Part shown: piece by piece, positions 1 to 39,041 of the stretch
Position numbering within the stretch: position 1 is the stretch's first letter
Layout of the letters: every line of letters starts with the position of its first letter
IMG/VR virus record: IMGVR_UViG_3300047388_000310
Span: 1 to 39,919 of that record
DNA from: a virus
DNA length: 39,919 nucleotides
Direction: 5' to 3' (one strand)
Position numbers and translations under genes: made by a program
The notes under the pieces: model-generated
Seen by the model: the letters and a program-made list of their open reading frames with translations, nothing else
The model's database searches: none
What the model was told of the DNA's origin: nothing

Positions 1-1068
1 GTCGTCATGGACTACTTCACCTCCCACTCGGAACTGTTCAACATCTGGGTCTCCGGGCAGAGCTTCCAGTCGAACATCGGCTTCGACCTCGGCGTGGTGT
101 CCACCAACACCCACTACACCAGCATCAGGAACTGCAAGATCCAGGTCGACGGGGCGAACGCGGTCGGTGCCCGGTTCCGCGGCGGCGCCACCGGGGCGAT
201 CTCCAACATGCTGGAGAACTGCCGCATCCTGCTGTCCACCACGGACGCGACGCAGACGGGGATCGTGGTCGCCACCCGGGCGATCCTGCTGATCCACCCC
301 GACATCGAAGCCGCCGCCGGCATAGGCATCGACGTGCAGACCGGCGGCGACGCCTGCACGGTCGTCGCGCCGTACCTGGAGTCCAACGGCACCAACCTGC
401 GGCTGGCGTCCGGGGTGACCGCGTTCTGCCTGGCAGGCGGGACGATCCTGACCGCCACGACGGCGGACATCACCGACAACGGGGCCGTCGCGCCGAAGAT
501 TTTCGGGCTCCGGTTCACCGGCGGCATCGCCTACGACCGGTTCGTCGCCCAGCAGTCCGCCGCCGCCGGGAAGATCTTCTACGTCATCAACACGAACGCA
601 ACCCCGTCAGATGCGGCGGTGCGGATCGACACGGTCACCGGGCAGCAGGCGTTCGCCATCAGGAACACCGGAGACGGCGCGGCCCGGTGGCGGATCACCG
701 GCTCCGGGGTGCATGACTTCGGCGACGGCACCGCCACGCCCGACTGCCACATGTCCCGGCAGGCCGCCGGGATCATGCAGTTCACCGGCTGTGACCTGGA
801 CATCGCCACCATCGGGAACAGCCTGCGGGTCGCTGAGGGCACCAACGCGAAGATGGGCACCGCGACCCTCAACGGCACCACCAACGTGGTGGTCAGCACC
901 ACGGCTGTCACGGCGGCCTCCCGGATCTTCCTGACCGTCCAGGCCGCAGCGGGGACGCTAGGCTGCCCGGTCGTGGCGACCCGGACTGCCGGAACGTCGT
1001 TCCAGATCAAGTCCACCGTGGCCGGCGACACGAGTACCGTCGCCTGGCTGCTGATCGAGCCCGGCTGA
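1..1068 (+). CDS. Phage tail fibre/spike, beta-helix type, 5'-truncated
   Basis: The reading frame is open at the left edge, so the N-terminus lies outside the window; the first internal ATG is at 7. The visible part is rich in short beta-strand-like repeats with Asn/Gly/Thr turns, typical of right-handed beta-helix (pectate-lyase-like) receptor-binding fibres. The last ~70 residues (AEGTNAKMGTATLNG to TVAWLLIEPG, with SRIFLTVQ and RTAGTSFQI) match the C-terminal domain that recurs at the end of many phage tail fibres. It probably binds or trims host surface glycan at the virion tip. No catalytic residues could be assigned. The family call is recognition from memory; the fibre role is inference from family and context. 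Confidence 0.75.
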   Translation, partial: VVMDYFTSHSELFNIWVSGQSFQSNIGFDLGVVSTNTHYTSIRNCKIQVDGANAVGARFRGGATGAISNMLENCRILLSTTDATQTGIVVATRAILLIHPDIEAAAGIGIDVQTGGDACTVVAPYLESNGTNLRLASGVTAFCLAGGTILTATTADITDNGAVAPKIFGLRFTGGIAYDRFVAQQSAAAGKIFYVINTNATPSDAAVRIDTVTGQQAFAIRNTGDGAARWRITGSGVHDFGDGTATPDCHMSRQAAGIMQFTGCDLDIATIGNSLRVAEGTNAKMGTATLNGTTNVVVSTTAVTAASRIFLTVQAAAGTLGCPVVATRTAGTSFQIKSTVAGDTSTVAWLLIEPG

Positions 1069-5606: not shown

Positions 5607-6064
5607 TGCACGAATACCACCATCACCCATGGGTGCACGAGCGCAAGAAAGCGGCACCGGTCCGGCTGGCCGACCAACTCCCCGAAGGCAGCGCCGTCCA
5701 GCGGTTCAACACACGGGTCGCGCTGGCCATAACGGGTGCGGTGGGCACGATGTGGTGTGCCTACATCTTCGCCGCGTTCGATCTGCTGGCACTGCCCACG
5801 GCAATCAAAGGCGGCCTGTACGGGATCGTGCAGTGGGTGGCGTCGTTCTTCCTGCAGCTCGTTTTGCTGTCGATCATCATGGTCGGCCAGAACGTGGCGG
5901 CCAAGGCCGCCGACAAGCAGAACCTCGCCACCTACAACGACGGCGAGGCCGCGCTGAGCGAGATCCTGAGCACCCAGCAGCATCTCCTCGCCCAGGATGA
6001 ACTGATCAAGGAGACCCAGCGGGTCATCCTGGCCGCGATCGGCAACCGGAAGGAGGTCCCGTGA
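5606..6064 (+). CDS. Two-span membrane protein, DUF1003-like topology
   Basis: The start overlaps the previous stop (TGATG). The 152-residue product begins with a striking His-rich stretch (MHEYHHHPWVHERKK), then two hydrophobic spans (~residues 36-60 and 72-92, ending LSIIMVGQN) and a charged C-terminal helix (AAKAADKQNLATYNDGEAAL). The order of spans, a polar QN motif and a charged helix resembles DUF1003 membrane proteins, but this is weak. The His cluster could bind metal. Translationally coupled to the GH25-like gene, so a role in lysis or envelope interaction is plausible. Confidence 0.55.
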   Translation: MHEYHHHPWVHERKKAAPVRLADQLPEGSAVQRFNTRVALAITGAVGTMWCAYIFAAFDLLALPTAIKGGLYGIVQWVASFFLQLVLLSIIMVGQNVAAKAADKQNLATYNDGEAALSEILSTQQHLLAQDELIKETQRVILAAIGNRKEVP

Positions 6065-6873
6065 CCTTGCGCATGCTCGATTCCATTGACGTGGCCAACC
6101 TCCCGGCCGGCGCGGACGCCTATGCGGGCTACGTCGATGGCCGGTGGGCTACCTGGATCGAACTCAAGGCTGCGTTCCCGAAGGCACGGCTGCTGTCTAT
6201 CGCGGTCTTCCCGGTTGATGACGCCGAATGCCTGGACGTGGAGAGCGGGGACGCCACAGTCGCCGATGTGCACGACTGGTTCCGGCGCCAGCAGCGCCGC
6301 AAGGTGTGGCGGCCGGTGATCTACACCAGCGCCTCGAACCTCGTCTCGTTGCTGGCCACCATGAACGCCAACGGGTTCGCCCGGTCCTCCTACCGCATCT
6401 GGTCTGCTCACTACCTCTCGGGGGAGCACATCTGTGCCCCGTCCTCATGCGGCTTCCCGGAAGCGGACGCCACCCAGTGGCGTGACTCCGCCCCGGGCCT
6501 GCACGGGTCCCGGGTCGATGAGTCCCTGCTGCACCATTCGTTCTTCCCCGCCCCGCCCGCGCCGCCGAAGCCGCCGCTGGTACCACCCGACCTGGTTGTC
6601 CATGCTTCAGGAGATGACGACATGGCGATGATCCTTCCCAACGGCGCAGGGGCGACCCTGGCCCTGAACGTCCCCGCTGACGCTTCCGAGCTGCAAGCCG
6701 CCCCGGACGGCCCCGCGTCGCTGGAGTACATGCTGAACAACTCCGGGAAGTGGGTCGAGTGGCAGGTGGATGCCAATCGGTCGCCGAACCCGGTGGCGCT
6801 CGGCGCGGCCAAGGTGGTGAGGGTGAAGCGCACCGACAAGGGCGCGAACCTGGTCACGGTGAACTGGGCTTAG
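6061..6873 (+). CDS. GH25-like (DUF1906-type) glycoside hydrolase, candidate endolysin
   Basis: The GTG start has AGGAGG four bases upstream and overlaps the previous stop by four bases (GTGA). Residues 1-150 look like a lysozyme-type TIM barrel: MLDSIDVANLP near the N-terminus, AECLDVESGDA (~55-65) with acidic residues where GH25 enzymes place catalytic carboxylates, WRPVIYTSASN (~83-93) and WSAHY. A proline-rich linker (PAPPAPPKPPLVPP, ~163-177) leads to a small C-terminal beta domain that may bind cell wall. The protein probably cleaves peptidoglycan during exit or entry. No signal peptide, in line with holin-dependent release. Substrate and catalytic residues are inferred. Confidence 0.65.
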   Translation: MTLRMLDSIDVANLPAGADAYAGYVDGRWATWIELKAAFPKARLLSIAVFPVDDAECLDVESGDATVADVHDWFRRQQRRKVWRPVIYTSASNLVSLLATMNANGFARSSYRIWSAHYLSGEHICAPSSCGFPEADATQWRDSAPGLHGSRVDESLLHHSFFPAPPAPPKPPLVPPDLVVHASGDDDMAMILPNGAGATLALNVPADASELQAAPDGPASLEYMLNNSGKWVEWQVDANRSPNPVALGAAKVVRVKRTDKGANLVTVNWA

Positions 6874-6875
6874 CC

Positions 6876-7127
6876 ATGGGCTCCGGGCGTTCCGCGATCA
6901 TCTCCGGTGACCGGGCCGACGGGACACAGCAGCGCCTGCGCCACGGGCTAGGGGAGCACAAGCCCTACCGGTGGCGGGGCATCCCGGGGTGGAACCCGGC
7001 CGCGGCACTGAAGGAGCACAGCGGGCCGCGGAAGTCCCGGGCGTGCGGGAAATGCAAGGCACAAGTGGGGGAGTCGTGCCTGGACAACTCGGGGAAGCCG
7101 ATGCGCGGGTACCACACGGGCCGCTAG
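6876..7127 (+). CDS. Small phage zinc-finger protein
   Basis: An ATG two bases after the preceding stop opens an 83-residue basic protein. Its C-terminus has the pattern C-x2-C-x6-C then G...YHTGR (ACGKCKAQVGESCLD, GYHTGR), the typical actinophage DNA-binding zinc-finger motif in which Cys and His ligate one zinc. The N-terminal half is polar and basic. No clear RBS is seen, so expression may depend on coupling. Likely nucleic-acid binding; its target is unknown. Confidence 0.55.
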   Translation: MGSGRSAIISGDRADGTQQRLRHGLGEHKPYRWRGIPGWNPAAALKEHSGPRKSRACGKCKAQVGESCLDNSGKPMRGYHTGR

Positions 7128-7129
7128 CC

Positions 7130-7213
7130 GTGTGGCTTGGCCGCGCGTTCTGGCCGCTGCTGCTCCTGCTGATTATCGTCCTGGCCGTCTACCTGGCCGC
7201 CGCGCTCACTTGA
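7130..7213 (+). CDS. Possible 27-residue single-span membrane peptide
   Basis: A GTG two bases after the preceding stop opens a very short frame, WLGRAFWPLLLLLIIVLAVY followed by LAAALT. It is one hydrophobic span with a basic N-terminal flank. There is no Shine-Dalgarno sequence, so it would depend on translational coupling. Holin or antiholin-like peptides of this kind exist near lysis genes, but this frame could also be chance. Confidence 0.3.
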   Translation: MWLGRAFWPLLLLLIIVLAVYLAAALT

Positions 7214-7272
7214 TGCCCCGTATGACCACGGCCGTTATGCGTTCTCCGTAATGAGAAAGGAACCCCGCCTCC

Positions 7273-8127
7273 ATGGCCAACAACTCCCGCTCACCTGGCA
7301 AGAAAGGCCTGAAACCGCGCGACCCTGACCGCTATGTCCTCACGGTCGAGCACTACCTGCGCCCGTGGGAAGGGCCGGTCAGGTCCCGTTTCATCACGCC
7401 CGCCCAGGCACTGCCCCCCGAGCCGGGCGACGTGGACCGGGAATCGCTCGTGGCCGACTGGCCCATGTATGTGAACGGCCCCGACCCGTCCAACCCGCCG
7501 TATGCGCCGGATGGGCTGGGGGACTGCTTCTGGGCCGGCTCCGGGCACTCGTTCACCGCCCAGCGGGTCTACGCCGGCTGGCCCGAGGTGCATTTCTCCA
7601 ACGACGCGATCGTCACCGGCTACGAGTCCGCCGGCTATGTGCGGGGCGACGAGAACACCGACCAGGGCACCGACCCAGCTCAGGGCCTCAAGTTCCTCCA
7701 TGACACCGGGCTGGCAGACCCGGACGGGAACACGCACAAGGTGGCCGGATACGCCTTCTTCGGCAACCCGCGCAACGTGTCCCTCATGGCCCAAGTGCTG
7801 GCCGCCGGGGGGACCGTGGGCATTGGGTTCGGCTGCACCCAGGGGTACGAGGATGCCTTCTCCCAGGGTGTCCCGTGCACCTGGCACCCCGGCGACCCCG
7901 TGGTCGGCGGGCACTGGGTGGTGCTCCAGCGGCGCAGCGTCGGCGGCGTAGGCGTCTTGCACGAAATCACCTGGGGTGCCGAGCAGCGGATCACGCGCCG
8001 CTACAACTGGCATACCATCACCGACGCCGCCATGATCGTCAGCCAGGACTACATCGAGGCCAACGGCGTCACGCTCCAGGGGTTCGACCTGGAGCAGTTG
8101 CTTGCCGACATGAGCGACGTGGAGTAG
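7273..8127 (+). CDS. Papain-like cysteine peptidase, phage-associated
   Basis: The 284-residue product has a Cys-His arrangement typical of papain/C39-fold peptidases: GLGDCFWAGSGH with Cys85, VVGGHWVVLQRR with His214, and HEITWGAEQ about 20 residues later supplying the third position. No signal peptide. GAAAGGA lies ~11 bases upstream of ATG 7273. Proteins of this type occur in actinophage tail/lysis regions and are thought to cut cell-wall peptides or process virion proteins. Directly upstream of the holin-like gene, it could be the peptidase half of a two-enzyme lysis system with the GH25-like protein. The enzymatic class is well supported by the motifs; its substrate is not. Confidence 0.65.
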   Translation: MANNSRSPGKKGLKPRDPDRYVLTVEHYLRPWEGPVRSRFITPAQALPPEPGDVDRESLVADWPMYVNGPDPSNPPYAPDGLGDCFWAGSGHSFTAQRVYAGWPEVHFSNDAIVTGYESAGYVRGDENTDQGTDPAQGLKFLHDTGLADPDGNTHKVAGYAFFGNPRNVSLMAQVLAAGGTVGIGFGCTQGYEDAFSQGVPCTWHPGDPVVGGHWVVLQRRSVGGVGVLHEITWGAEQRITRRYNWHTITDAAMIVSQDYIEANGVTLQGFDLEQLLADMSDVE

Positions 8128-8207
8128 CCGCGCTCCCTTCTCCTCCGCAGGGCTGGCGTCCCGTCAGCCTGCTCCCCCCCGCAAGTGGCCCCTAAAGGAG
8201 GAGTCAC

Positions 8208-8582
8208 ATGAAGTTCCTCAAGTCTTGGCCGTTCCTTTCAGCCGCGTTCGTGCAAGCAGCTCTCGCGATGGTGGTGGCCTTCGGGTTCCACCTGTCCGCG
8301 CGCCAGACCGGCTCGATTGAGGCGGCCGCCGCCGCGGTCCTGGCGCTTCTCGTGGCACCGCATGTCAAGGAGGTCGTGGTGCCGCTCGCCATCGGTGCCC
8401 TGACGGCGATGGGTGCCCTCCTCGTGGCCTTTAAGCTGCCGCACGTCAGTTCGGCTGAGGTGTCCGCGTTCGTGGCCGCCCTCGTTGCGCTGCTGGGCAT
8501 GCACGGGCACTCGGCGGTGACGAACAAGCTGCTGCAGGGGCAGCGGCTGGAGAAGCGCGGGCAGGTTCCCCAGCGGCTCTGA
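8208..8582 (+). CDS. Holin-like membrane protein
   Basis: AGGAGGAG precedes the ATG. The 124-residue protein has about four hydrophobic segments (FLSAAFVQAALAMVVAFGFH, SIEAAAAAVLALLVAPHV, VVVPLAIGALTAMGALLVAF, VSAFVAALVALLGMHG) and a basic tail ending KRGQVPQRL. The size, short charged N-terminus and last place in the lysis cluster fit a phage holin. It is followed by a strong terminator, so it closes the late operon. Another small membrane role cannot be excluded. Confidence 0.65.
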   Translation: MKFLKSWPFLSAAFVQAALAMVVAFGFHLSARQTGSIEAAAAAVLALLVAPHVKEVVVPLAIGALTAMGALLVAFKLPHVSSAEVSAFVAALVALLGMHGHSAVTNKLLQGQRLEKRGQVPQRL

Positions 8583-8642: not shown

Positions 8643-8680
8643 GGCCGGCCCCATCCTCCGGGATGGGGCCGGCCTGTTTT
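8643..8680 (+). terminator. Strong rho-independent terminator of the late operon
   Basis: A perfect 14-bp GC-rich stem (arms 8643-8656 and 8661-8674) with a TCCG tetraloop is followed by TGTTTT. It lies 60 bases after the holin-like stop and 14 bases beyond the stop of the convergent minus-strand gene, so it can insulate both. Confidence 0.9.
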
Positions 8681-8693
8681 CGCATGCCCGCGG

Positions 8694-9038
8694 TCAGGCC
8701 AAGTGCACAGGCTCTAGGTCAAACGTCACCTTGCCGTCAAGAAGCACATGACGCCCGGTGACCCGGTAAGTGCCCTCGTTATCTCCGTGTCTCACGGTGA
8801 CGATGTGGCCTTCCTCAATCGCAGCGATTGCGGCGGCCCAAGCGCCGAGCATTTCCAGCGTCGCGCCCGCAGAGGCACCGTAGGCGAAGGGGGCAGCATT
8901 TAGCAGGGGCGTGCATTCCTCCTGCACGGGAGCAGGCGGCGGTGCCCACCGCATCGCGTCCTTGCTGGTGCCGTAGTCCCGCAGCGCGCCGTCGATGGTG
9001 TCAAGAATCTCGCTGGCCACGGTCCCATTCTTCCGCAT
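8694..9038 (-). CDS. Small uncharacterised phage-type protein
   Basis: A 114-residue product starting at ATG 9038; the frame stays open further upstream, and no good RBS settles the start. The N-terminal part (EILDTIDGALRDYGTSKDAMRW) carries the D-A-M-R-W motif seen in many small actinophage proteins. The middle is hydrophobic (LEMLGAWAAAIAAIEEG) and the C-terminus is beta-rich (TVRHGDNEGTYRVTGRHVL). It is read toward the late-operon terminator. Function unknown. Confidence 0.5.
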   Translation of the reverse strand: MRKNGTVASEILDTIDGALRDYGTSKDAMRWAPPPAPVQEECTPLLNAAPFAYGASAGATLEMLGAWAAAIAAIEEGHIVTVRHGDNEGTYRVTGRHVLLDGKVTFDLEPVHLA

Positions 9039-9157
9039 GTCACCGGCCACCTGTTTGTCACCCTGCGGACAGGATTGCCTCCGGCCTGTGACGGGGACGA
9101 TCGTGGTGGAGGTCAGGTCTCCTTGCCGAGTTGGACACGGCGCCCGCACAAGGTAAC

Positions 9158-9193
9158 GCCCATCCCGCCAGGTCCCCCGTTGGCGGGATGGGC
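9158..9193 (-). terminator. Hairpin terminator after the lectin-protein gene
   Basis: A perfect 13-bp inverted repeat (arms 9158-9170 and 9181-9193, 10-base loop) lies 19 bases after the stop of the minus-strand secreted-protein gene. There is no strong T-run on either side, so it is a high-GC actinobacterial-type terminator rather than a classical one. Confidence 0.6.
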
Positions 9194-9211
9194 ACTTTCG
9201 CATACCAGGGG

Positions 9212-10588
9212 CTAGACGTTCGTCCACTGCTCCGAGCCGTAGGTGCTGTTGCACGCCCATAGTTGAAGCTGGGTTCCGCTGGTAGTGCTGTAATTCGGGT
9301 CACGCAGGCACTTGCCCGAGGTGGGGTTCACCCACTCGTGCGTGGTGTTGTTGTATGACCACTGCTGGTTCCACCCGCCGCTGCAGCGGTACAGGTCGAT
9401 TAGTGCGCCGTTCGCCGTGCTGTGGTTGGCGATGTTGATGCACTGCCCCGTGTTCAGGGAGCGTCGCAGCGACCCGTCAGGGTAGGCCACCCAGGTCTGG
9501 CGGGTGAACCCGTTACAGCCGCTGATGTCCACCTTGGTGTTGTTGGCAAGGGAACCGCCAAAGTCATCCACGCAGAAAGTGGACTTCCCCTTCAGCTTGA
9601 TTGCGGCCTTGGGATAGGTGGATGCGGCCTGACAGTTGCTGGTTCGGTTGTCCCACTCAGGCTGCATGGCGAAGGTGCCGGTGCTCATCGTTTCCGCGAA
9701 CAGCCCGGTCCACGCGCACTTGTCGCCGATCTCGAACCCAGCGTTGTCGTACCAGGCGGACTGGTTGTTGACGAACGGGTCGGTGACCGACTCGGTGAAC
9801 TCGTGCCCGCCGACGATGCTCCACCCGTCGAAGGCGTTCTGCACGAAGTTGGCCCCGCAGTTGCCGCCCTGGTCAGGCATGTAGGGCAGGTTGGTCCAGC
9901 TCAGGAGCTGGGTGCTGCTGTACTGGGCCCAGTTGTGGTAGGCGCAATACTGGGAGCCGAAGCCACCGCCGGGGTTGGTGCCCGAGGGGCTGACCACGAC
10001 GATCTGCGTGTTGTTGTTAATCGAGTGGCCGCCGCTGGCCAGGAAGTTGGCGTAGGCCACTGCCACCGCCGCGAGCTGGGCGTCCGTGGCCGAAGCGGGC
10101 ACCGCCCCGTCGCAGTAGACATTCTCCTGGATGAGAGCGTGGCCCGCCACGGTCGGGTAGATGGGGTCAGTGGGGCCGTACTGGCTGGCGATCGGGGCCT
10201 CGGTGTCGCTGCTGGTGCCGATGCCGCTGTAGAGAGCGCCGAGGTAGGCCTCGTCGTTGCCGCCGTTGCCGAGCTGGCCGCTACAGGTGGAGGACCACCA
10301 CAGGCCCCAGTAGATCACGTAGACCTGCGGGTCCTGCTGGACGGGGCCGCCGTGCCAGAGCAGGTTGCCGCCGCCCAGGCGGTTGATGGTGCCCGCCTTG
10401 GCGAACGGGACGGTGATCTTGGGGCTGCCGTGCTGGACGCTTGCCGGGTGCAGGGTGATCCCCCGCAGAAGCGGCGCCGTGTGGTGCGCCGTGCCCGCGC
10501 CCGCGGGGGCGGCGATCCCGAGCGCCGCCAGCAGGGCAGCGGCCAGGAATGCGACGGGGACAGACCATCGCCGCAGGGTTCCAGTCAT
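9212..10588 (-). CDS. Secreted HExxE metalloprotease-like protein with ricin-type lectin domain
   Basis: ATG 10588 is preceded by AAGGAA. The 458-residue protein has a typical signal peptide (basic MTGTLRRW, hydrophobic core to ~residue 30, AGA cleavage region). The central domain (~70-320) contains GGHEFTESVTDP (HEFTE, 262-266) and GFEIGDKCAW (~285-293), the zinc-peptidase-like HExxE plus downstream E-G-D pattern of a family of secreted actinobacterial proteins. Residues ~330-458 form a ricin B-like beta-trefoil with three QxW-type repeats (QTW, QQW, EQW) and disulfide cysteines, which bind sugars. It is probably exported to act at a glycan surface. HExxE replaces the usual HExxH, so catalysis is not certain. 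Last gene of the carbohydrate cassette. Confidence 0.7.
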   Translation of the reverse strand: MTGTLRRWSVPVAFLAAALLAALGIAAPAGAGTAHHTAPLLRGITLHPASVQHGSPKITVPFAKAGTINRLGGGNLLWHGGPVQQDPQVYVIYWGLWWSSTCSGQLGNGGNDEAYLGALYSGIGTSSDTEAPIASQYGPTDPIYPTVAGHALIQENVYCDGAVPASATDAQLAAVAVAYANFLASGGHSINNNTQIVVVSPSGTNPGGGFGSQYCAYHNWAQYSSTQLLSWTNLPYMPDQGGNCGANFVQNAFDGWSIVGGHEFTESVTDPFVNNQSAWYDNAGFEIGDKCAWTGLFAETMSTGTFAMQPEWDNRTSNCQAASTYPKAAIKLKGKSTFCVDDFGGSLANNTKVDISGCNGFTRQTWVAYPDGSLRRSLNTGQCINIANHSTANGALIDLYRCSGGWNQQWSYNNTTHEWVNPTSGKCLRDPNYSTTSGTQLQLWACNSTYGSEQWTNV

Positions 10589-10629
10589 AGATATTCCTTC
10601 CTTGGTTAATGACGTGAATAACGGGGGTC

Positions 10630-11334
10630 TTACCTCACGGAGAACTGCGTGGTTGCCAGGCCTTCGCCATTCACCCACAGCTCGAACCCCGCCGAGATCT
10701 GGACAAGCAAGTCGGCCGGGCGTGCCCAGCCCTGCGTGACTGCCAGCTCGAAAAACGGGGTGAGGTTCAGGTCTGTCACGCTTGCCCGTGGCGTGGCATA
10801 CCGGAACTGGATCAGGTTCCAGGAAACCGAGGGGTCATTCGCGCTCATTCGCGGCCGCTTGCTCAGCAGGAACTCATCCGCCCCCACTGTGACCGGGTAG
10901 GCTCCCAGCGGCACTCTCGGGTACGTGAGCATGATCATCACCTCGGCGACCCGGAACTGCTGGCCGGGCCACTTGCTGAAAATCCAGCAGTCGTAGGTGG
11001 TGTCCCACCTGCTCCCGGGCACGGCGTCCTGGCTGGTTTCCCAGGTGGTGAGGATGGGTCTCAGCCCCGCCAGGCTCACGGGCATGAAGCTTCCGTGCGT
11101 CTTGGCGTTGCCAAAGAGGCTGCAGCCGCTGCTGATGCTGGGGTAGCCCATCACGGCCGAGCTGTCGGCGGCTGATTTCACGATGGTGAAATCAGGGGCA
11201 CCGCTGGCATTGGTGATGCACTGCTCCCCGTTATAGGCGGTGCCGTAGCCCCAGGCGTTGTTGGCCAGGAGATAGGCGGGGGGGCCGCCGGCTGTCACGG
11301 GAAGGGAATCGTACTGCCCGCAGAGGATGCCCAT
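10630..11334 (-). CDS. GH12 endoglucanase-like enzyme lacking a signal peptide
   Basis: A 234-residue protein with the full GH12 pattern: CGQYDS at the N-terminus, NNAWGYG (~25-31), YNGEQCI (~34-40), SSGCS (~68-72), TTWETS, WDTTYDCWIF, EVMIML with the presumed nucleophile Glu131, and SAGFELWVNGEGL with the presumed acid/base Glu218. GH12 enzymes hydrolyse beta-1,4-glucan, xyloglucan or mixed-linkage glucan by a retaining mechanism. The start codon falls where the mature chain of secreted relatives begins; no export signal is visible. It starts four bases after the lipoprotein gene, so it is co-translated. It may trim the polymer made by the GT2 synthase. Family certain; localisation odd. Confidence 0.8.
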   Translation of the reverse strand: MGILCGQYDSLPVTAGGPPAYLLANNAWGYGTAYNGEQCITNASGAPDFTIVKSAADSSAVMGYPSISSGCSLFGNAKTHGSFMPVSLAGLRPILTTWETSQDAVPGSRWDTTYDCWIFSKWPGQQFRVAEVMIMLTYPRVPLGAYPVTVGADEFLLSKRPRMSANDPSVSWNLIQFRYATPRASVTDLNLTPFFELAVTQGWARPADLLVQISAGFELWVNGEGLATTQFSVR

Positions 11335-11338
11335 AGAA

Positions 11339-11770
11339 TCAGCCTTTGACCTGATGCTTCAGCAAGCAGTACGTGGCAATTAGTTTACCGTAGCCGAATG
11401 CGGCCTGCTGGGTCTTGTGCGACAAGACCATGGCGATCTTGTACTTGGCCCACATGGCCGCGATGGCGTCTGTCACGCAGGTGGTGGCTGCCTGCCGCCG
11501 GGCCGGGGTGCGGCCCAGGCATTTGACTAGCTTGTCCCGGTCCCGCAGCCCCCAGCCGGACCTGGTGATGCACTTGGCGAACACGGCCTCGGCGGCGTTC
11601 TTGCCGGGGAAATGCGCGGGGGCCGTGGCCGGGCTCGCGCTCGGGCTGGCACTAGGGCTGGCCGGAGGCGCGGCGGCGGGCGCGCTGCTGGTGCTGTGCG
11701 GGCCGCAGCCCGCGAGGACGAGGACCGCAGTGGTGAGGACCGCGGCGGCGAGGAAGGCTCTTGCGCTCAA
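11339..11770 (-). CDS. Small lipoprotein
   Basis: A TTG start overlaps the preceding stop (TTGA), with GAAGGA upstream. The 143-residue product has a lipoprotein signal with lipobox LAGC (Cys22), followed by an Ala/Ser/Pro linker (~25-53) and a compact helical domain with four cysteines (AKCITRSGWG, KCLGRTP, TTCVTD, TYCLLK), which may form two disulfides. It is likely anchored on the outer face of the membrane beside the polysaccharide synthase. No enzymatic motif is seen; an assembly or binding role is inference from context. Confidence 0.65.
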   Translation of the reverse strand: MSARAFLAAAVLTTAVLVLAGCGPHSTSSAPAAAPPASPSASPSASPATAPAHFPGKNAAEAVFAKCITRSGWGLRDRDKLVKCLGRTPARRQAATTCVTDAIAAMWAKYKIAMVLSHKTQQAAFGYGKLIATYCLLKHQVKG

Positions 11771-12705
11771 CTGGATTCCTTCAGTTTCTGGGACTCTTGG
11801 CGGAAGGTGGCCAGGTCCTGCGGGCGGTTGTCGAGATACCAGGGCCTGCGGCCATCCTGGTCATACCAGAGCAGGCCCAGCAGGTGGTACTGCCTGATGC
11901 CGTCGAACAGCGACCGGATCTGCTGCGCGCTTGTGAGCCATGGCCCGGTCGCCGTCTCGGTCAGCAGCACAGGCTTACTGGTGACGCGGCGGATTTGCCG
12001 CAGGGTGGGCCGGAAAATGCGGCGGAAGGTGGCCTGCGGGCCCTCGAAGTAGGCGTCCAGCCCGACCCAGTCCACGTACGGCGCGCCCGGCCACCACCGG
12101 GCCACGGGGGAGGAGCCGGGGCCGCCGTAGACATGGTTGACCGTCCACACCCAGGTCACCAGCGGGGAGGCCAGCAGGTCATGGACGCGGCGCCACGCCG
12201 TGATGAAGTCCGCCGGGCGGGTGTGCCGGAACCCCCACGGGTACCAGTCCCCGTTCATCTCGTGGCCGAAGGACAGGGCAACGCGCATGTGCGCCCTGGC
12301 TATCTGGGCGGCGAAGGAACGCAGGTGGCCGTCGTCCGCCCCGGACAGGACCGGGGCCACTCCCTGGCGCGGGTCGAGCTGGATGAGCGGCAGGATGCCC
12401 CGCGCTGTGAGGTACGCGGCCCACCGGGCCGGGAACGGGGAGCTGAGCCGCTGGTAGACCTCCACGATGGTGGGCGGCACCTGGGTCGCGGTCACCCAGG
12501 CGGCGAGGCGGGCCCTGCTCTGCTCGGCCAGGTCGACGCCCCGGTAGCATCCGGTGCTGCGGCAAAGCCGGAGCACCGGCGGTGGCGGGGAAGGGGCAGC
12601 CTGCGGCGCCGGGCCAGGGTGCGGCTGCGACAGGTTCCAGCCCAGGACCGCGATCAGGGCAAGGGGGACCAGCGCGGCCAGCGTCTTGCCCGCCCTGGAA
12701 GTCAC
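11767..12705 (-). CDS. GH26-family glycoside hydrolase, membrane-anchored or secreted
   Basis: The GTG start overlaps the GT2 stop (GTGA). The 312-residue product has an N-terminal hydrophobic segment (LAALVPLALIAVLGWNL) without a clear cleavage site, a Pro/Ala linker, then a TIM barrel with GH26 signatures: LSFGHEMNGDWYPWG (acid/base Glu149), TWVWTVN, RWWPGAPYVDWVGLDAYF, and KPVLLTETATGP (nucleophile Glu250). GH26 enzymes cleave beta-mannan, beta-1,3-xylan or mixed beta-glucans. Coupling to a GT2 synthase suggests it edits or releases the nascent polysaccharide. A second GH26 gene lies at the right edge of the window. Confidence 0.8.
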   Translation of the reverse strand: MTSRAGKTLAALVPLALIAVLGWNLSQPHPGPAPQAAPSPPPPVLRLCRSTGCYRGVDLAEQSRARLAAWVTATQVPPTIVEVYQRLSSPFPARWAAYLTARGILPLIQLDPRQGVAPVLSGADDGHLRSFAAQIARAHMRVALSFGHEMNGDWYPWGFRHTRPADFITAWRRVHDLLASPLVTWVWTVNHVYGGPGSSPVARWWPGAPYVDWVGLDAYFEGPQATFRRIFRPTLRQIRRVTSKPVLLTETATGPWLTSAQQIRSLFDGIRQYHLLGLLWYDQDGRRPWYLDNRPQDLATFRQESQKLKESS

Positions 12706-14198
12706 GCCGCCTCCAGAACGGCATCCGGCGGGACGGTCAGCGCCTCGATGCCCTCCTGGCGCGTTGTCCACCGCTGCTTCAGGAAGGTGCTGATCCCGTA
12801 CAGCCGGACCGGGCGCAGCACCACCGTGGCCCACAAGATGCCGGTGGGGTAAAGCAGCAGCGACTTCAGCCGGTACGCCCGGCTCTCACCCTCCCGCCGG
12901 ACCCTGAGGGTGTGCGGCGCGACCATGTAGGTCCAGCCGATCACCGAGACGGCCGCATACTCCAGGATCCGCGCGGAACCCGGCCAGTTGAGCGCGATGA
13001 CCGCCGGCAGCGCGGCCGACATGAAGATCATGTACCAGGTGAGCACCGTCCACCAGTAACCGTAGGAACGGACGGGCAGGTACTTCAGCCGCCAGCAGTT
13101 GCGGATCACCGCGCCGCGCGCCCAGCGGGTCCACTGGCGGAAGTGGTGGGAGAAGGTCTCCGGGTGCATAGGCAGGCTGAACGCGGTCGGCTGCTGCACC
13201 GTCTTCCCGTACCACTGGCAGAACAGGGTGAGCGCCGCGTCGTCGCCGAGTTTGATCCGCCGGCCCAGGAACGTCTCCCCGATATAACAAGGCACGGCCT
13301 CACGGATGACCCATGCCCGGTACAGCGCGAACGTGCCCCGGTTGACCAGCAGGCAGCCGCGCACCGATTGCGCGGCCCAGACGGTGAGCTGATAGTAGGT
13401 GTTGCGGACGGCCACGGTCCGGGTCAGCCAGTTGACGTTCTTGTTGAAGTTCTCCTCCACGCCGGCGACGGACATGACCTTCTCATCGGCCAGCGGCTTG
13501 AGCCCTTCCTCGATGCCGCGATAGTCCAGGGTGGTGTCCGAGTCCACCGTCACGAAGATGTCGGCCTCCGGGTGGGAGGCGAACACCACCGACTGCGCCC
13601 ACTTCTTGCCGCCGTTCTCCGGCAGCGTGGTCCACCGCACCTGGCAGCGGCCGCCGGATTGCGCTGTCCAGTGCTCCTCCAGTGACCGGTAGCCCGCCCC
13701 GCCCGAGCCGTCGTCCACGACATGGATGCAGTCAGGTGGCCAGGACTGGTTGAACAGCGCCCAGATGCAGCGGTCCAGCAGGGCGGGGTCCTCGTTGTAA
13801 ACAGGCACGGCCGCCACCACGCACAGCCGGCGCAGCAGCGCGGCCTCCGCGGGCCCCGCCGTGAACGGGCGGCTGAACCAGGAGATCGCCAGCGGGACTG
13901 CCCGCATGCCCAGCCCGGCCGCCCACAGCAGTAGCAGCAGCGGGGAGGCGTTCTCCGCGGACCAGTAGTGACGGGCGACCAGGAACAGGATCGCCAGCAT
14001 GGCGAGGGACGCCCAGGCCCACGCCCAGGAATCCGAATACCGGACGCGGGGGACGTCGTAGGACCCGCTCAGGGCTCCTGGAGTGACTTGCCGCGCCGCC
14101 ACAGGAACCGGGCCGTCAGCGCTATGGCGATGACGGCCGCCCCGCTTGCGGACGCGGCCACGATCATGTCCCGGAACACGGCTGTCGTTGCCTTTCAC
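12702..14198 (-). CDS. Processive GT2 polysaccharide synthase, hyaluronan/cellulose-synthase-like
   Basis: Membrane glycosyltransferase with the processive GT2 hallmarks (numbered from GTG 14198): VAAVPVYNEDP (~128-138), VVDDGSGG (~160-167), TVDSDT (DxD, ~217-222), KLGDDAALTLF (~316-326) and RQWTRWARG (QxxRW, ~354-362). Two N-terminal and several C-terminal membrane spans flank the catalytic core. It should polymerise a nucleotide sugar on the inner face and push the chain outward. The start is uncertain: the first ~50 residues from GTG 14198 look non-native and overlap another small frame, so translation may begin nearer 14050-14110 at GTG or CTG. First large gene of the cassette, coupled to GH26 by a GTGA overlap. 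Confidence 0.8.
   Translation of the reverse strand: MKGNDSRVPGHDRGRVRKRGGRHRHSADGPVPVAARQVTPGALSGSYDVPRVRYSDSWAWAWASLAMLAILFLVARHYWSAENASPLLLLLWAAGLGMRAVPLAISWFSRPFTAGPAEAALLRRLCVVAAVPVYNEDPALLDRCIWALFNQSWPPDCIHVVDDGSGGAGYRSLEEHWTAQSGGRCQVRWTTLPENGGKKWAQSVVFASHPEADIFVTVDSDTTLDYRGIEEGLKPLADEKVMSVAGVEENFNKNVNWLTRTVAVRNTYYQLTVWAAQSVRGCLLVNRGTFALYRAWVIREAVPCYIGETFLGRRIKLGDDAALTLFCQWYGKTVQQPTAFSLPMHPETFSHHFRQWTRWARGAVIRNCWRLKYLPVRSYGYWWTVLTWYMIFMSAALPAVIALNWPGSARILEYAAVSVIGWTYMVAPHTLRVRREGESRAYRLKSLLLYPTGILWATVVLRPVRLYGISTFLKQRWTTRQEGIEALTVPPDAVLEAA
14069..14167 (-). CDS. Small single-span membrane protein upstream of the GT2 gene
   Basis: A 32-residue frame (MIVAASASGAAVIAIALTAR then FLWRRGKSLQEP), or 36 residues if it starts at GTG 14179. 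It has one hydrophobic span and a basic stop-transfer tail. Its stop lies just before the point where conserved GT2 sequence begins, which suggests it is a separate coupled gene and that the GT2 start is downstream of 14198. It may be a small subunit of the synthase. No clear RBS. Confidence 0.4.
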   Translation of the reverse strand: MIVAASASGAAVIAIALTARFLWRRGKSLQEP

Positions 14199-14268: not shown

Positions 14269-14288
14269 TACCATCTCTAAATATGGTA
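14269..14288. promoter_or_regulatory. Inverted repeat over the serine integrase start codon
   Basis: TACCAT (14269-14274) and ATGGTA (14283-14288) form a 6-bp inverted repeat with an 8-base spacer that includes the ATG of the serine recombinase. TACCAT could also serve as a -10 element for a nearly leaderless transcript; no matching -35 is seen. A protein bound here would block both transcription and translation starts. Confidence 0.4.
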
Positions 14289-15776
14289 GCGGGCCAGGGT
14301 GGCGAATGGGTGGTTTACCTGCGCTTGTCCAAAGGGCGGGCCGGGATCGCCCGGCAGCGCCGGGCCACCATCGCCTGGGTGGAAGGCGACCTCGGCGGCA
14401 CCATCGTAGACGAGTTCCGCGACGCCGATAAGACAGCCTTCCAGCAATTCGGCGGCCCGCTGCCCAAACGGGCCGGGTTCGATGGCATGCTCGCCGCCAT
14501 CGCCGCCCGGCCAGGGCTGAGCGCCGCCGCCTGGCATGCCGACCGGCTGTGCCGCAACCTGGATGACGCCGAGCGGCTGCTCACCACATCGGCTGGCGCC
14601 GGGGGAGTGATCGGCACCCCGGCCGGGGGCATCTACGACCCGTCCACCGCCACCGGGCGGGGGAACTTCCGCCGCGACGTCGTGTCGGCCATCTCCGAGG
14701 TGGACCACATGACCGAGCGGATCGTGCTGATGAAGAACGAGGCCAAGGCGGCCGGGCACTGGCTCGGCGGCCCCAGGCCGTTCGGGTGGGAACGCGACCG
14801 CAGCCGCGAGGACGGGGAGCCGCCGCGGCTGCTGCTGGCGCCTGCCGAGGCGGACCTGATCCGCTCCGGCACCCTGGCGATCATCGAGGGTGCCTCGCTG
14901 CGGTCGGTCGCCGCCGCGTGGAACGCCTCCGGGATCACCGGCCCCAGGGGCGGCACGTGGGCAAACCGGGACGTTTCCCTGATGCTCCGCCGCGCCCGCA
15001 ACGCCGGCCTGGCCGAGCACAACCTCGACGGCACCGGCCCGCAAGTGCTCCGCGACGGCACCTGGCCCGCGCTCGTCACCGCAGACGAGTGGCGCACCTG
15101 CAAGGCGGTCCTGGAGAATCCCGCCCGGCGCACCGCGTTCACCACCCAGCCCAAGCACCTGCTGTCCGGGATCGCGCTATGCGGCGTGTGCGGGTCGCCC
15201 GTCGTGGCCGACGGCGGGAACCGCGGCCGCGGCCGCCCGCGCCAGGTCACCTACCGGGACCGGCCCAAGGGCGGCAAGGGCCACGTAGCCCGCAACGCCG
15301 GCCCGCTCGAGGAGTACGTCAGCGAACTGGTCATCGCCTGGGTCGAGCGGTACGGCCAGGACGCCCTGAACCCGCCCGCCCCGGACACCGCCCTGCTGTC
15401 AGCCCAGTTGCGGGCCGTGGAGGGCGAGCTGCGGTCCCTGGAGCGGGCCGCCGACGAGGGGGCCATCACCAACGCCCAGTGGCTGCGCCGCGTCACCCCG
15501 CTCAACAAGCAGGCCGCCAGCCTGGGCGGCCGCATCGCCAGCGCCGCCGTGGCCAGGGTGCCCGCGCAGGTCTTCACCGAGGACGACATCCGGGCCGGAT
15601 GGCACGCGGCGGACCTCGACGCCCAGCGGGCGATCATCCGCGCGCTCATGACCATCACCATCCTGCCGTCGCCGCCGGGACGGCCACCCGGGTGGAAGCG
15701 GGGCGACGGGCCGTACTTCCGGCCGGAGCTGGTGCGGATCGGGTGGAAGCGCGGGGGCGGCGACCCGGCCGATTGA
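14283..15776 (+). CDS. int: Large serine recombinase (phage integrase)
   Basis: The 497-residue protein has the three-part structure of large serine integrases. The resolvase catalytic domain begins WVVYLRLSKGR (nucleophile Ser16), followed by ARQRRA and AAAWHADRLCRNLDDAERL (~81-99). The recombinase domain begins LGGPRPFGWERD (~161-172), with WNASGITGPRGGTW. The zinc-ribbon region has LCGVCGSP (Cys300, Cys303), but the second cysteine pair is replaced by polar residues (TYRDRPKGGKGHVARNAGP). A coiled-coil-like segment (~365-400) precedes the C-terminus. It should join attP and attB; a gp3-like directionality factor encoded 18 kb away could reverse it. No RBS is seen, suggesting a leaderless start. 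Confidence 0.9.
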   Translation: MVAGQGGEWVVYLRLSKGRAGIARQRRATIAWVEGDLGGTIVDEFRDADKTAFQQFGGPLPKRAGFDGMLAAIAARPGLSAAAWHADRLCRNLDDAERLLTTSAGAGGVIGTPAGGIYDPSTATGRGNFRRDVVSAISEVDHMTERIVLMKNEAKAAGHWLGGPRPFGWERDRSREDGEPPRLLLAPAEADLIRSGTLAIIEGASLRSVAAAWNASGITGPRGGTWANRDVSLMLRRARNAGLAEHNLDGTGPQVLRDGTWPALVTADEWRTCKAVLENPARRTAFTTQPKHLLSGIALCGVCGSPVVADGGNRGRGRPRQVTYRDRPKGGKGHVARNAGPLEEYVSELVIAWVERYGQDALNPPAPDTALLSAQLRAVEGELRSLERAADEGAITNAQWLRRVTPLNKQAASLGGRIASAAVARVPAQVFTEDDIRAGWHAADLDAQRAIIRALMTITILPSPPGRPPGWKRGDGPYFRPELVRIGWKRGGGDPAD

Positions 15777-15799
15777 GTATGACTTCCGCTGAGTTTGGC

Positions 15800-15836
15800 T
15801 TGACAATCCCGATCCGGGCCACGTACGATACGACTT
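15800..15836 (+). promoter_or_regulatory. Consensus promoter giving a leaderless tyrosine recombinase mRNA
   Basis: A perfect TTGACA (15800-15805) and TACGAT (15824-15829) are spaced by 18 bases. The -10 ends seven bases before ATG 15837, so transcription should begin at or next to the start codon. This is the best consensus promoter seen in the window and makes the tyrosine recombinase gene independent of the serine integrase gene 60 bases upstream. Confidence 0.75.
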
Positions 15837-16814
15837 ATGACTAGAAGCGGTACTAAGCCTGTTGAGGGCTCTGACATGACCGTTTCCCGCGGTGACACCG
15901 TCGAATTCGAGGTCAAGGGCCGCGGGAAACTGACCGGGACCGTCGCCAGCGCCTACATGGCGCTCGGGAACAGCCCCCGGGTCACCGTGATCTCCGGCGA
16001 CAAGAAGTACACCCGGCTCGCCGCCAGCGTGACACTCACCCGCAAGGCCGCCGAGGTGCCCGGCGTCAAGGCTGGCTTTGGGCGCCGGAGCGCGGGGGAG
16101 CCCTCGCCCACCCGGGGGCGCCGGTACGCGGCGGAACTGCTCACCCCCGCCGAGGTCGCCGCGATCCTCGACACCTGCTCGCGCCGCGCGCCGACCGGGA
16201 TCCGCAACCGGGCCATGCTCACGCTCCTGTACCGCAGCGGGCTGCGCATCTCCGAACTGCTGGCCCTGCGGCTGAGCGACGTCAACCTCGACGCGCACAC
16301 CATCCGGCTCCTGGACACCAAGTCCGGGAAATCGCAGACCCGCGGGTTCCATCCCTCGGCCACTGATGCCCTCGCCCGGTGGGCCGACAAGCGGCGGCAG
16401 CTCGGCATCCGTAACGGGCGGCTGTTCTGCACCCTCGATGGCGGACCGGTGTCGGCCGAGTACGTGCGGATGATGCTGCGGCGGGCCGCCGCCAAGGCCG
16501 GGATTGAGAAGCGCGTCCACCCGCACGGGCTACGGCACACCTTCGCCGCCGAACTTGAAGCGGCCGGGACGCCGGTGACCACGATCAGCAAACTGCTCGG
16601 CCACTCCTCCGTGGCCGTGACCAACACCTACCTCCAGCACCTCACCAACAGCGAGGCGGTCACCGCCCTGGAAGGCGTAGACCTGCCGCCGCTTCCAGGG
16701 GCCAAGGCCCCTGAGCCGGCCACCCTGGAAGATGAGGTCGCGGCCCTGCGGGAACAGGTAAAGGCCCTGGCCGCCACGGCTTCCGCTCAGGCCGCAAAGC
16801 CGGAGGCGCGCTGA
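15837..16814 (+). CDS. Tyrosine recombinase with SH3/KOW-like N-terminus
   Basis: A 325-residue protein with a complete tyrosine-recombinase catalytic domain (~100-275): YRSGLRISE (Arg137), DTKSGKS (Lys162/165), HPHGLRHTFAAE (His230, Arg233), LLGHSSVAVT (His256) and NTYLQH (Tyr265). Residues ~15-70 are beta-rich (RGDTVEFEVKGRGKLTGTV, SPRVTVISGDKKYTRL) and resemble a small SH3/KOW barrel rather than the helical core-binding domain of ordinary integrases. A short coiled coil ends the protein. ATG 15837 is favoured by the leaderless promoter; ATG 15876, with GAGGGC upstream, is an alternative. It may resolve dimers, act on a second att site, or assist the serine integrase. Confidence 0.85.
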   Translation: MTRSGTKPVEGSDMTVSRGDTVEFEVKGRGKLTGTVASAYMALGNSPRVTVISGDKKYTRLAASVTLTRKAAEVPGVKAGFGRRSAGEPSPTRGRRYAAELLTPAEVAAILDTCSRRAPTGIRNRAMLTLLYRSGLRISELLALRLSDVNLDAHTIRLLDTKSGKSQTRGFHPSATDALARWADKRRQLGIRNGRLFCTLDGGPVSAEYVRMMLRRAAAKAGIEKRVHPHGLRHTFAAELEAAGTPVTTISKLLGHSSVAVTNTYLQHLTNSEAVTALEGVDLPPLPGAKAPEPATLEDEVAALREQVKALAATASAQAAKPEAR

Positions 16815-32779: not shown

Positions 32780-33165
32780 CGGGCTGCCCCCGTTTCCCGT
32801 ACCTGGGCCAGCCGCTCGGCCAGCAGGGCATCGAGTTCGCGGATGCTGCGCCGCTTGCGGAGCTGCCCCCACGGGCCCATGCCCTCCTGGATGGCGCGCT
32901 TGTGCTGCCCCTGGGCGGTCGTGTAGCCGGGCAGGATGACCTCGGCGGGAGTGCCTTCCGGCAGCCCGTCCAGGCGTGCGGGGCTGCCGCAGCGGCAGTC
33001 CCAGGCGGGCCGGGGCGTGGCTTCTGCGGCGAGCGTGATGGTGAACGGGCCGCAGCGGGCACAGATGTAGATGATCTCTTGCCTGGGGGCGAGTTCCCGT
33101 GCTTCGGTTTCGCCCGAGGCCGGGCCGCTGCCGACCTTGGTGGCCTTGATCGTGCCGGGGCTCAC
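32776..33165 (-). CDS. RbpA-like RNA polymerase-binding protein
   Basis: GTG start, 129 residues. The layout follows actinobacterial RbpA: a variable N-terminal tail, a zinc-containing core (IYICARCGPFTITLAAEATP, AWDCRCGSPARL; Cys35, 38, 57, 59) and a C-terminal sigma-interaction helix (RKRRSIRELDALLAERLAQV, ~103-122), which aligns with the ERRSIxELExLLxERL motif of RbpA. Host RbpA activates group 1/2 sigma holoenzyme. A phage copy could favour phage promoters or replace the host factor. It lies between the exonuclease and RDF-like genes, inside the early operon. Similarity is by remembered motif. Confidence 0.75.
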   Translation of the reverse strand: MSPGTIKATKVGSGPASGETEARELAPRQEIIYICARCGPFTITLAAEATPRPAWDCRCGSPARLDGLPEGTPAEVILPGYTTAQGQHKRAIQEGMGPWGQLRKRRSIRELDALLAERLAQVRETGAAR

Positions 33166-34301
33166 TGGCCGCCTCCCGCCTGGTCGGCCCAGTCCGGGTC
33201 ATCGAACAGGGAGCCGTCATCGCCAGCCGGGGACGGGCGCGCGGCCTGTGCCTGGCGCTGGCGCGGTGCCCCGGCGGCGGGGAGTTCGTGCCACCGGGCG
33301 GCCAGGTAGTCGCGCAACTCCTCGGCCGTGCTGTCGCTGTCGCCGGGCGTGGTGATGTGGTTGTCCCTGAGGCCGCACTCGTCCGCCTGGGCGGCGTAGG
33401 CCTCAATCTCCTCGCGCGTGGTGGCGTTGGCGGCGTTGTCAGCGATCTGCTGCGCGGTCACCTCCGGCTTGCCCGCAGGCGCGGGCAGCGTGGTGGCTTC
33501 CGGCTCGCTGGTGCCCTCGGCGGGAGCCCCGGCGGTGAGCGCGAGGGGGCCGCTGCCGGCGCTGAGCATGGCGAGCATCCCGTCCATCCCGGTCGGCAAC
33601 TGGGCGAGCTGCTCGGCGGACGGGCTCGGCCGCAGGACCGGCACCGGGTAAGGGTGACCGTCCTGCCCGGGACGCCAGTGGATCAGGCACTGCGCCGGGA
33701 GGAACACGTCCATCGCGCGGGCCCGTTCCAGGACGGCTCCGGTGTCAGCAGTTTCGACCGCGGCGTTCGCGGACCCGGTGTTGAGCCGCCACACCCCGAT
33801 CGCGCCGGGCAGCCAGGGGATCGCGAGGTTGATCCTTGTGAGGGGCTTGCAGGCCTGCCCGAGGGCGGCGAGCCGCTTCCGCTCGTAAGCGGCGCCGGCC
33901 ACGTCGGCGGGGTCGGTGCGGTCCTCCGGCTGGGGGCACATGCACGGCTGCCCAGACCGGGTCTCGGTGATGCCGTCGCAGCGCCGCCGGCATTTCCCCT
34001 CCACCCACAGTTCCATCCAGGCGTCGACGGCCAGGCCCCGTGGTGGCACGAATACGTCGATCTTGGCCACGTTGGTGTCCACCACCCAGTACCCGCGGCG
34101 GCGGTCCCATGGTTCGGGCTTGCCGCCGAGCCGCTCGGCGATCGCGGCGGCGGTCTCCTCGGCGGGCGTGGTGAACCGGAAGGTCTCCCGGCGCACCGGC
34201 CGGCGGCCCTTCTTGCCGGGGATCGGCTCGGACTGGCCGATGCGTATTTCGCCGAGCGGCAGGCTGCGGCGCTGCAGGTCGAGAACTCCGGTGATGGGCA
34301 T
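33162..34301 (-). CDS. phiC31 gp3-like recombination directionality factor
   Basis: ATG 34301 lies one base after the nuclease stop; the longer start at 34334 has no family match. 379 residues. The first ~250 follow the phiC31 gp3/RDF family: GEIRIGQ near the N-terminus, RRETFRFTTPAEE, WDRRRGYWVVDTNVAKIDVF, GKCRRRCDGITETRSGQPCM (Cys104, 108, 120, 122), LTRINLAIPWLPGAIGVWRL and LPAQCLIHW. RDFs bind the serine integrase and switch it from integration to excision. The C-terminal part (EEIEAYAAQADECGLRD, WHELPAAG, DGSLFDDPDW) is variable. Its likely partner is the serine integrase 18 kb away. Confidence 0.75.
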   Translation of the reverse strand: MPITGVLDLQRRSLPLGEIRIGQSEPIPGKKGRRPVRRETFRFTTPAEETAAAIAERLGGKPEPWDRRRGYWVVDTNVAKIDVFVPPRGLAVDAWMELWVEGKCRRRCDGITETRSGQPCMCPQPEDRTDPADVAGAAYERKRLAALGQACKPLTRINLAIPWLPGAIGVWRLNTGSANAAVETADTGAVLERARAMDVFLPAQCLIHWRPGQDGHPYPVPVLRPSPSAEQLAQLPTGMDGMLAMLSAGSGPLALTAGAPAEGTSEPEATTLPAPAGKPEVTAQQIADNAANATTREEIEAYAAQADECGLRDNHITTPGDSDSTAEELRDYLAARWHELPAAGAPRQRQAQAARPSPAGDDGSLFDDPDWADQAGGGQ

Positions 34302-34302
34302 G

Positions 34303-38768: not shown

Positions 38769-39041
38769 GTGATGGATGAGGCTGGGGGCGCTTCCCTGGA
38801 AGGCCGGGTGGAGGCGCTGGAGGCGAAGGTCGCTGCCCTGGAGCGGTTCTTCACCATGCTCGGCCGCGACGGCCAGGACGGTGCCACACCTGCCGCCGGC
38901 GGCGGCTCCCGCTGGGTGGAGTTCGGGGACAGCGACTACCTGGTGCCCGAGGGCATGACCGTGGAAGAAACCGACGCGGTGTTCCGCCACGCCGAGGCCA
39001 GCCCGCGGAACGCCCCGCCTCAGCCGCCCGCCGCTGGCTGA
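38769..39041 (+). CDS. Small coiled-coil protein
   Basis: Start GTG 38769 or ATG 38772; TAAAAT (38758-38763) just upstream could be a -10 for a leaderless mRNA, although it overlaps the stop of the XRE gene. 90 residues: a coiled coil (LEGRVEALEAKVAALERFFT), a Gly-rich linker, WVEFGDSDYLVPEGMTVEET, and a Pro-rich end. Its 3' end overlaps the convergent GH26 stop by 22 bases. Confidence 0.5.
   Translation: MMDEAGGASLEGRVEALEAKVAALERFFTMLGRDGQDGATPAAGGGSRWVEFGDSDYLVPEGMTVEETDAVFRHAEASPRNAPPQPPAAG

Follow-up and report, generated by a model that had tools for sequence, protein, structure and literature searches.

The stretch of DNA analyzed here, hereafter the window, is the entire IMG/VR record IMGVR_UViG_3300047388_000310, a linear sequence of 39,919 bases (39.9 kb) at whose ends no repeats were found. 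Tail and lysis genes (plus strand) are followed along the record by the cassette under study (minus strand), a serine integrase (plus strand), and early genes (minus strand). The rightward genes of the left part include a tail gene with a C-terminal domain of the K1-lyase type, a tail-fibre-like gene, an endolysin, and a holin, while the rightward genes after the cassette encode the large serine integrase and then a XerC/D-like tyrosine recombinase. The leftward genes of the right arm encode a DNA methyltransferase, a DnaB-like helicase, a replication initiator, an HNH protein, a DnaQ-like exonuclease and, further on, a Gp3-like recombination directionality factor (RDF; 33162–34334, minus strand; PF18897, 2.8e-29) and an exonuclease, with a repressor-like HTH protein near the right end. 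The end of the record cuts a second GH26 gene (39020–39919, minus strand; PF02156, 6.8e-8), whose frame is open to the last base and continues the homology to the GH26 of viral locus L006. As no head or packaging genes were seen in the 39,919-base window, the record probably represents part of a single phage genome. The phage is a temperate actinobacterial phage from soil, and lysis genes adjoining the integrase represent the arrangement of an unintegrated genome; the same order of lysin, holin, a few genes, and serine integrase is present in Mycobacterium phage LastHope.

The left border of the cassette is formed by the lysis module (6061–8582, plus strand), consisting of the endolysin (6061–6873; a weak match to phrog_291), a further gene (7273–8127; phrog_19005), and the holin (8208–8582; phrog_9752). 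It ends in an intrinsic terminator (8643–8674, plus strand) with a 14-bp stem, a T-run, and a fold z of -5.3. A short phage-like gene at about 8694–9041 (minus strand, start chosen by eye) lies between the holin and the lectin gene and weakly matches (1.7e-6) an ORF of IMG/VR locus L013. Downstream of the lectin gene, near 9160–9195, there is a further hairpin, which lacks a clear U-run. On the right, the large serine integrase (14283–15776, plus strand; PF00239, PF07508, and phrog_95 at 7e-59) is transcribed divergently from the cassette. The cassette does lie between phage lysis genes and a serine integrase, as the earlier note on this DNA had it, and is read in the direction opposite to the late genes. 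The terminators proposed for both sides were recovered on the left, i.e., the strong hairpin with its T-run, and none was found between the synthase gene and the integrase. No repeat pair callable as attP was found around the integrase start, and among 395 genomes no close prophage with this integrase was found, the best matches having 33–40% identity. No promoter for the cassette was identified, and thus its expression from the prophage is assumed.

The cassette comprises five leftward genes encoding a GT2 glycosyltransferase, a GH26 hydrolase, a lipoprotein, a GH12-like protein, and a protein with an HExxE motif and a ricin-B lectin domain; Pfam matches and the lipoprotein signal agree with the previous assignment of all five. 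The 4-base overlaps were likewise confirmed, GTGA between the GT2 and GH26 genes and TTGA between the GH26 and lipoprotein genes, and the GH12 gene starts 4 nt past the lipoprotein stop.

The first gene (12702–14102, minus strand; PF00535, 2e-12) encodes a 466-aa processive membrane GT2 polysaccharide synthase. Its frame had been listed as extending to 14198, which is too long, the likely start being the GTG at 14102. The QxxRW motif reported before is present together with DSD and GDD; the motifs DSD, GDD, QWTRW, and ETFLG align with those of the Chlorella-virus hyaluronan synthase (HAS), with the TFLG priming loop in place, and the key Asp, Arg, and Trp residues are invariant across 21 relatives. 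A profile of twelve relatives searched against PDB had its best match in Chlorella-virus HAS (3.7e-27). The nearest NCBIfam model is NodC (TIGR04242, 3.5e-27, well under its cut-off), and the curated cut-offs for NodC and PgaC were not reached. The AlphaFold model (pLDDT 83.8) combines a GT-A domain with membrane helices arranged as in HAS and superimposes on Chlorella-virus HAS with Z 30.9 over 385 residues at 3.3 A; Z is about 30 for the Chlorella-virus and Xenopus HAS vs. 19–25 for cellulose synthases. Because the profile match, the model alignment, and the motifs coincide, we assign the protein by family to predicted HAS/NodC-type (class I) processive synthases, leaving its product unnamed. 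The description of the module as complete holds in part, in that a HAS-type enzyme polymerises and exports alone; for precursors, the module would depend on the host.

Overlapping the GT2 start is an ORF missed in the earlier note (14069–14179, minus strand). Its product (VFRDMIVAASASGAAVIAIALTARFLWRRGKSLQEP) is a small membrane protein that has one helix and a basic tail, about 36 aa long from a GTG start or 32 aa if the ATG at 14167 is used. A pattern search found such an ORF directly upstream of the GT2 gene in 89 of 109 loci from phages and bacteria, a count to be read in view of the fact that the pattern itself selected for hydrophobic, basic-tailed ORFs. For this reason, better evidence is provided by an HMM from which the window and its nearest relatives had been left out; among the 776 ORFs of the window, it ranked this one first (E 2.7e-5; the next at 0.067). 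An LAxTG-like motif occurs in many copies of the protein and is absent from that of the window, and neither the window protein nor its counterpart gp78 of Streptomyces phage Kromp had an NCBIfam match. The small protein is a conserved neighbour of this GT2 family, and a natural guess is that it is a subunit of the synthase.

The GH26 endo-glycanase (11767–12705, minus strand; PF02156, 6.5e-10) has an N-terminal membrane anchor and a catalytic domain scoring 39.3 bits vs. a cut-off of 20.2. Both catalytic glutamates, E149 and E250, which form the acid/base and nucleophile pair, are kept and are invariant in 15 aligned sequences. The best solved relative is Lic26A of C. thermocellum, deposited as endoglucanase H (4.8e-15).

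The next gene encodes a predicted lipoprotein of 143 aa (11339–11770, minus strand) with an LVLAGC lipobox recognized by eye and no significant family match. The GH12 endoglucanase-like protein (10630–11334, minus strand; PF01670, 4.4e-5) scores 24.1 bits, just under the Pfam cut-off of 27; its phmmer match to solved GH12 endoglucanases is nearly full length (2.6e-21), the catalytic glutamates were judged by eye, and no signal peptide was found. The last protein (9212–10588, minus strand) is predicted to be secreted and carries a C-terminal ricin-B lectin domain (PF00652, 2.8e-20). Its likely start is the ATG at 10588, preceded by the ribosome-binding sequence AAGGAAGGA; a signal peptide was seen by eye, the reported HExxE motif is present as HEFTE, and the AlphaFold model has a pLDDT of 33, too low for assigning the HExxE domain to a family.

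By its predicted gene content, the cassette fits a synthase-dependent exopolysaccharide operon: a membrane synthase and a hydrolase with a membrane anchor lie in one cluster with a 4-base overlap, and the pair is recurrent. Judged from these sequence features, the cassette very probably encodes the maker and trimmer of an extracellular polysaccharide on infected cells.

Single-protein scans of viral contigs with the GT2, serine integrase, lectin, and GH12 proteins gave no matches; an alignment-based scan of viral contigs yielded 29 loci with this GT2. A GH26 gene follows the GT2 gene, in the same direction, in 11 other virus records, namely, nine of these loci (L006, L007, L008, L012, L017, L019, L031, L033, and L034), L155 from the GH26 scan, and the phage GX15bay. 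Most of the pairs overlap or are separated by a short gap. In the 185-kb phage of L019, the GT2, polysaccharide deacetylase, GH26, and UDP-glucose dehydrogenase genes stand in a row, which from the assigned functions would be a biosynthetic rather than a scavenging set. The pair adjoins identified lysis genes and is convergent with them in L006, L007, L012, and L033, of which the first two are nearly identical sequences in two records; the placement in L017, where the lysis genes were not identified, is compatible with the same arrangement. In the 92-kb record of L012, collinearity with the window extends to either side of the pair and takes in the integrase: the tail gene, endolysin, GH26, GT2, integrase, g19094, HNH, and DnaQ genes share the order and orientation of the window. 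TerL_ATPase (PF03354) was detected in none of the records, including the reference phage GX15bay, and hence is uninformative; the tape-measure family was used as a phage marker in its place, and its domain scored above the cut-off in six records (L006, L007, L012, L017, L033, and GX15bay). The search of related phages for the remainder of the cassette was negative: none of the other phages searched yielded the GH12, lipoprotein, or lectin gene, the negatives being weak for GH12, since its profile also missed the GH12 of the window itself. The endolysin scan found phages with a related lysin, and in two of them, L181 and L185, a serine integrase is present as well. The leftward genes between lysin and integrase in these two are different ones and include neither GT2 nor GH26; the large proteins encoded there had no Pfam match and show a P-loop by eye and an FtsK-like look. 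The lysis-integrase junction is therefore variable and, from the gene order in these phages, looks like a cargo site.

These observations bear on the two alternatives left by the earlier note, phage cargo or host DNA between two prophages. Host DNA so enclosed, or an assembly chimera, could have placed the 9–14 kb region in a phage record by accident, and the closest GT2 outside the window (52–56% identity) indeed belongs to a bacterial MAG. This is the actinobacterial locus L066 (isolate palsa_506), the closest non-phage relative, whose contig combines GT2-GH26-GH12, UDP-glucose dehydrogenase, and GH26-GT2-GH26 in an EPS-like locus; the absence of GH12 and lectin genes from the other phages searched points the same way. 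However, the GT2-GH26 pair occupies the same place and orientation beside lysis genes in L006/L007, L012, and L033, L012 is collinear over both arms, the RDF of the right arm is what would be expected for a serine integrase, the window contains no tRNA, and the GC content of the cassette is only slightly below that of its surroundings. Conserved placement, collinearity, and the tape-measure domains together make a chance fusion with host DNA very unlikely, and we regard both forms of this explanation as highly improbable, rejecting that of two prophages in view of L006/L007, L012, and L033. As distant relatives of the core pair stand at the same place in several other phages, the cassette is genuine cargo of the phage and not host DNA that strayed into the record. 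Its characterization as unusual should be softened, given the recurrence of the pair.

A first scan of genome contigs with the GT2 alone gave no matches, and none of the phage genes of the window was detected on the L066 contig. In the GT2 tree, the window groups with L066 (99% SH-aLRT) and then with phage locus L006 (97%). The GH26-bearing GT2s are scattered, the GH26 label needing at least five changes on well-supported branches; by this tree, phages probably gained such modules on several occasions, or GH26 was lost from them again and again, and a single acquisition by phages is unsupported. Kromp gp79 and related actinophage or prophage GT2s belong to the same family (39% identity) and have a similar small upstream membrane protein; unlike that of the window, they have no GH26 partner and lie at another genome position.

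We consider the cassette likely to be a synthase-dependent exopolysaccharide module that a temperate actinobacterial phage carries as cargo, with its lysis genes on one side and its integrase on the other. The families, catalytic residues, predicted fold, overlaps, recurrence, and position described above are what we observed; which polymer is made, when it is expressed, and what it does to the cell we infer. Likewise, the attP position and the change of the receptor layer proposed in the earlier note may hold for this phage. The GT2 and the small one-helix protein would polymerise host nucleotide sugars and extrude the chain through the membrane; the membrane-anchored GH26, translationally coupled to the synthase, would trim or free the chain outside; the lipoprotein, GH12, and lectin proteins would be accessory; and the polymer, made in the lysogen or in early infection, would coat the cell. 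The role of GH26 is modelled on BcsZ, CcsZ, and AlgL acting on their own polymers. Like the cassette, the BcsA-BcsZ, clostridial Ccs/CcsZ, and alginate/AlgL systems have a linked extracytoplasmic glycanase alongside their membrane GT2 synthase, and the hydrolase belongs to the synthase operon, as is established for CcsZ (PMC7710045) and also for BcsZ and AlgL. The cassette differs in being phage-borne, in having GH26 and GH12 vs. GH8 or GH5, and in its synthase of the HAS/NodC branch vs. BcsA, with no c-di-GMP subunit seen.

The hydrolases might instead be auxiliary enzymes degrading environmental or competitor polysaccharide, with the synthase incidental. Glycoside hydrolases of soil phages have so far been read as tools for environmental carbon degradation, e.g., the CAZyme genes of the mangrove soil phage GX15bay (MK557849), which its authors interpreted as degrading environmental polysaccharide (PMC6460857). 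The GH12 and lectin proteins do resemble secreted degradative enzymes, and some viral GH26 genes have no adjacent GT2. Yet the GH26 gene overlaps that of the synthase, its product is membrane- or lipid-anchored, GH26 follows GT2 in the 11 other records, and its host counterparts lie in synthase loci, so that we consider pure degradation improbable. GX15bay, like the window, is tailed and has a GT2 directly followed by a GH26-type gene, as well as a second GH26-type gene; it differs in that its GT2 is about 25% identical and lies at another genome position. That the synthase and hydrolase genes overlap and occupy a conserved phage locus suggests polymer-making modules as the context of some of these hydrolases, in which case GX15bay and similar records would need re-reading, something for which the synthase pairing argues without proving it.

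As for timing, the polymer might act in lytic growth or at lysis, by coating virions, aiding escape from biofilm, or separating infected cells, and not in the lysogen. The pair also occurs in large phages in which no integrase was detected (the records of L019 and L031); this is consistent with such a role, as is the GH12 without a signal peptide, which could be released at lysis. Also in its favor, chloroviruses direct extracellular hyaluronan synthesis from an early-expressed synthase (PMC5408694). That of PBCV-1 is, as in the window, a virus-encoded HAS-type GT2, and it provides the best profile and structural match. PBCV-1 differs as an algal virus whose has, gfat, and udp-glcdh genes do not function as an operon, and the account of it consulted here mentions no coupled partner of the GH26, GH12, lectin, or small membrane kind. 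Against an exclusively lytic role, the pair adjoins the integrase in both the window and L012, where it runs counter to the late genes and converges with those for lysis; we therefore view such a role as unlikely, and retain expression in the lysogen, or early in infection, within the favored exopolysaccharide reading.

In serotype conversion of the gtr type, phage-encoded enzymes change the host surface glycan by adding single sugars to an existing glycan. The window, in contrast, encodes a processive polymer synthase and, if the exopolysaccharide reading is true, phages would install a whole surface polymer, beyond decorating one; the conserved small membrane protein would be a possible subunit of this synthase family. 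A literature search, which reached few subscription journals, found no direct precedent for phage-encoded synthase operons. Tentatively, and as a possibility we would not yet favor, actinobacterial phages may carry mobile HAS-type synthases, each with a one-helix partner and often a coupled GH26, at a lysis-side cargo site; the phage-specified polymer would coat the lysogen or infected cell and block or select later phages, whose tail depolymerases would have to match it.

The hints on the chemistry of the polymer diverge. A UDP-glucose dehydrogenase gene lies within 0.9 kb of the GT2 gene in 19 of 80 bacterial loci, and this linkage in hosts, together with the HAS-like fold, suggests uronic acid. 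At odds with this, the Lic26A-like GH26 and the GH12 suggest a beta-glucan.

The GT2 gene of the cassette, predicted to encode a HAS/NodC-type processive polysaccharide synthase, is preceded by a gene for a small membrane protein with one helix (14069-14179, minus strand). Such a protein is a conserved neighbour at the start of GT2 genes of this family, in phages and bacteria alike, and many of its copies carry an LAxTG-like motif.

The GT2-GH26 pair also occurs in other phage records. Within a 185-kb record (L019), genes for GT2, a polysaccharide deacetylase, GH26, and UDP-glucose dehydrogenase follow one another on a single strand (L019:9947-15291). In the nearly identical records L006 and L007, an IS605 OrfB/TnpB-type gene (L006:6197-7741) separates GH26 from the holin gene. 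In a 161-kb record (L031) the GT2 frame (L031:1363-2605) is interrupted by a TGA codon and followed by an intact GH26 gene. The window itself contains a second GH26 gene (39020-39919, minus strand), which is truncated where the record stops on the right. This gene resembles the GH26 of phage L006 more closely than that of the cassette; the gene upstream of it, outside the record, is possibly a second GT2.

In three phage loci with a related lysin (L181, L183, and L185), the lysin is followed by leftward genes. One of them encodes a P-loop protein of 625–697 aa that no Pfam family matches, and L185 also has a gene for a DUF2637 protein; this recalls plasmid-type elements.

In the window, a large serine integrase is directly followed by a XerC/D-like tyrosine recombinase (14283-16814, plus strand). 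Near the left end, a tail gene (7-1068, plus strand) encodes a C-terminal K1-lyase domain (PF24146), and its product may be a tail spike that binds or degrades polysaccharide, encoded by the same phage as the cassette.
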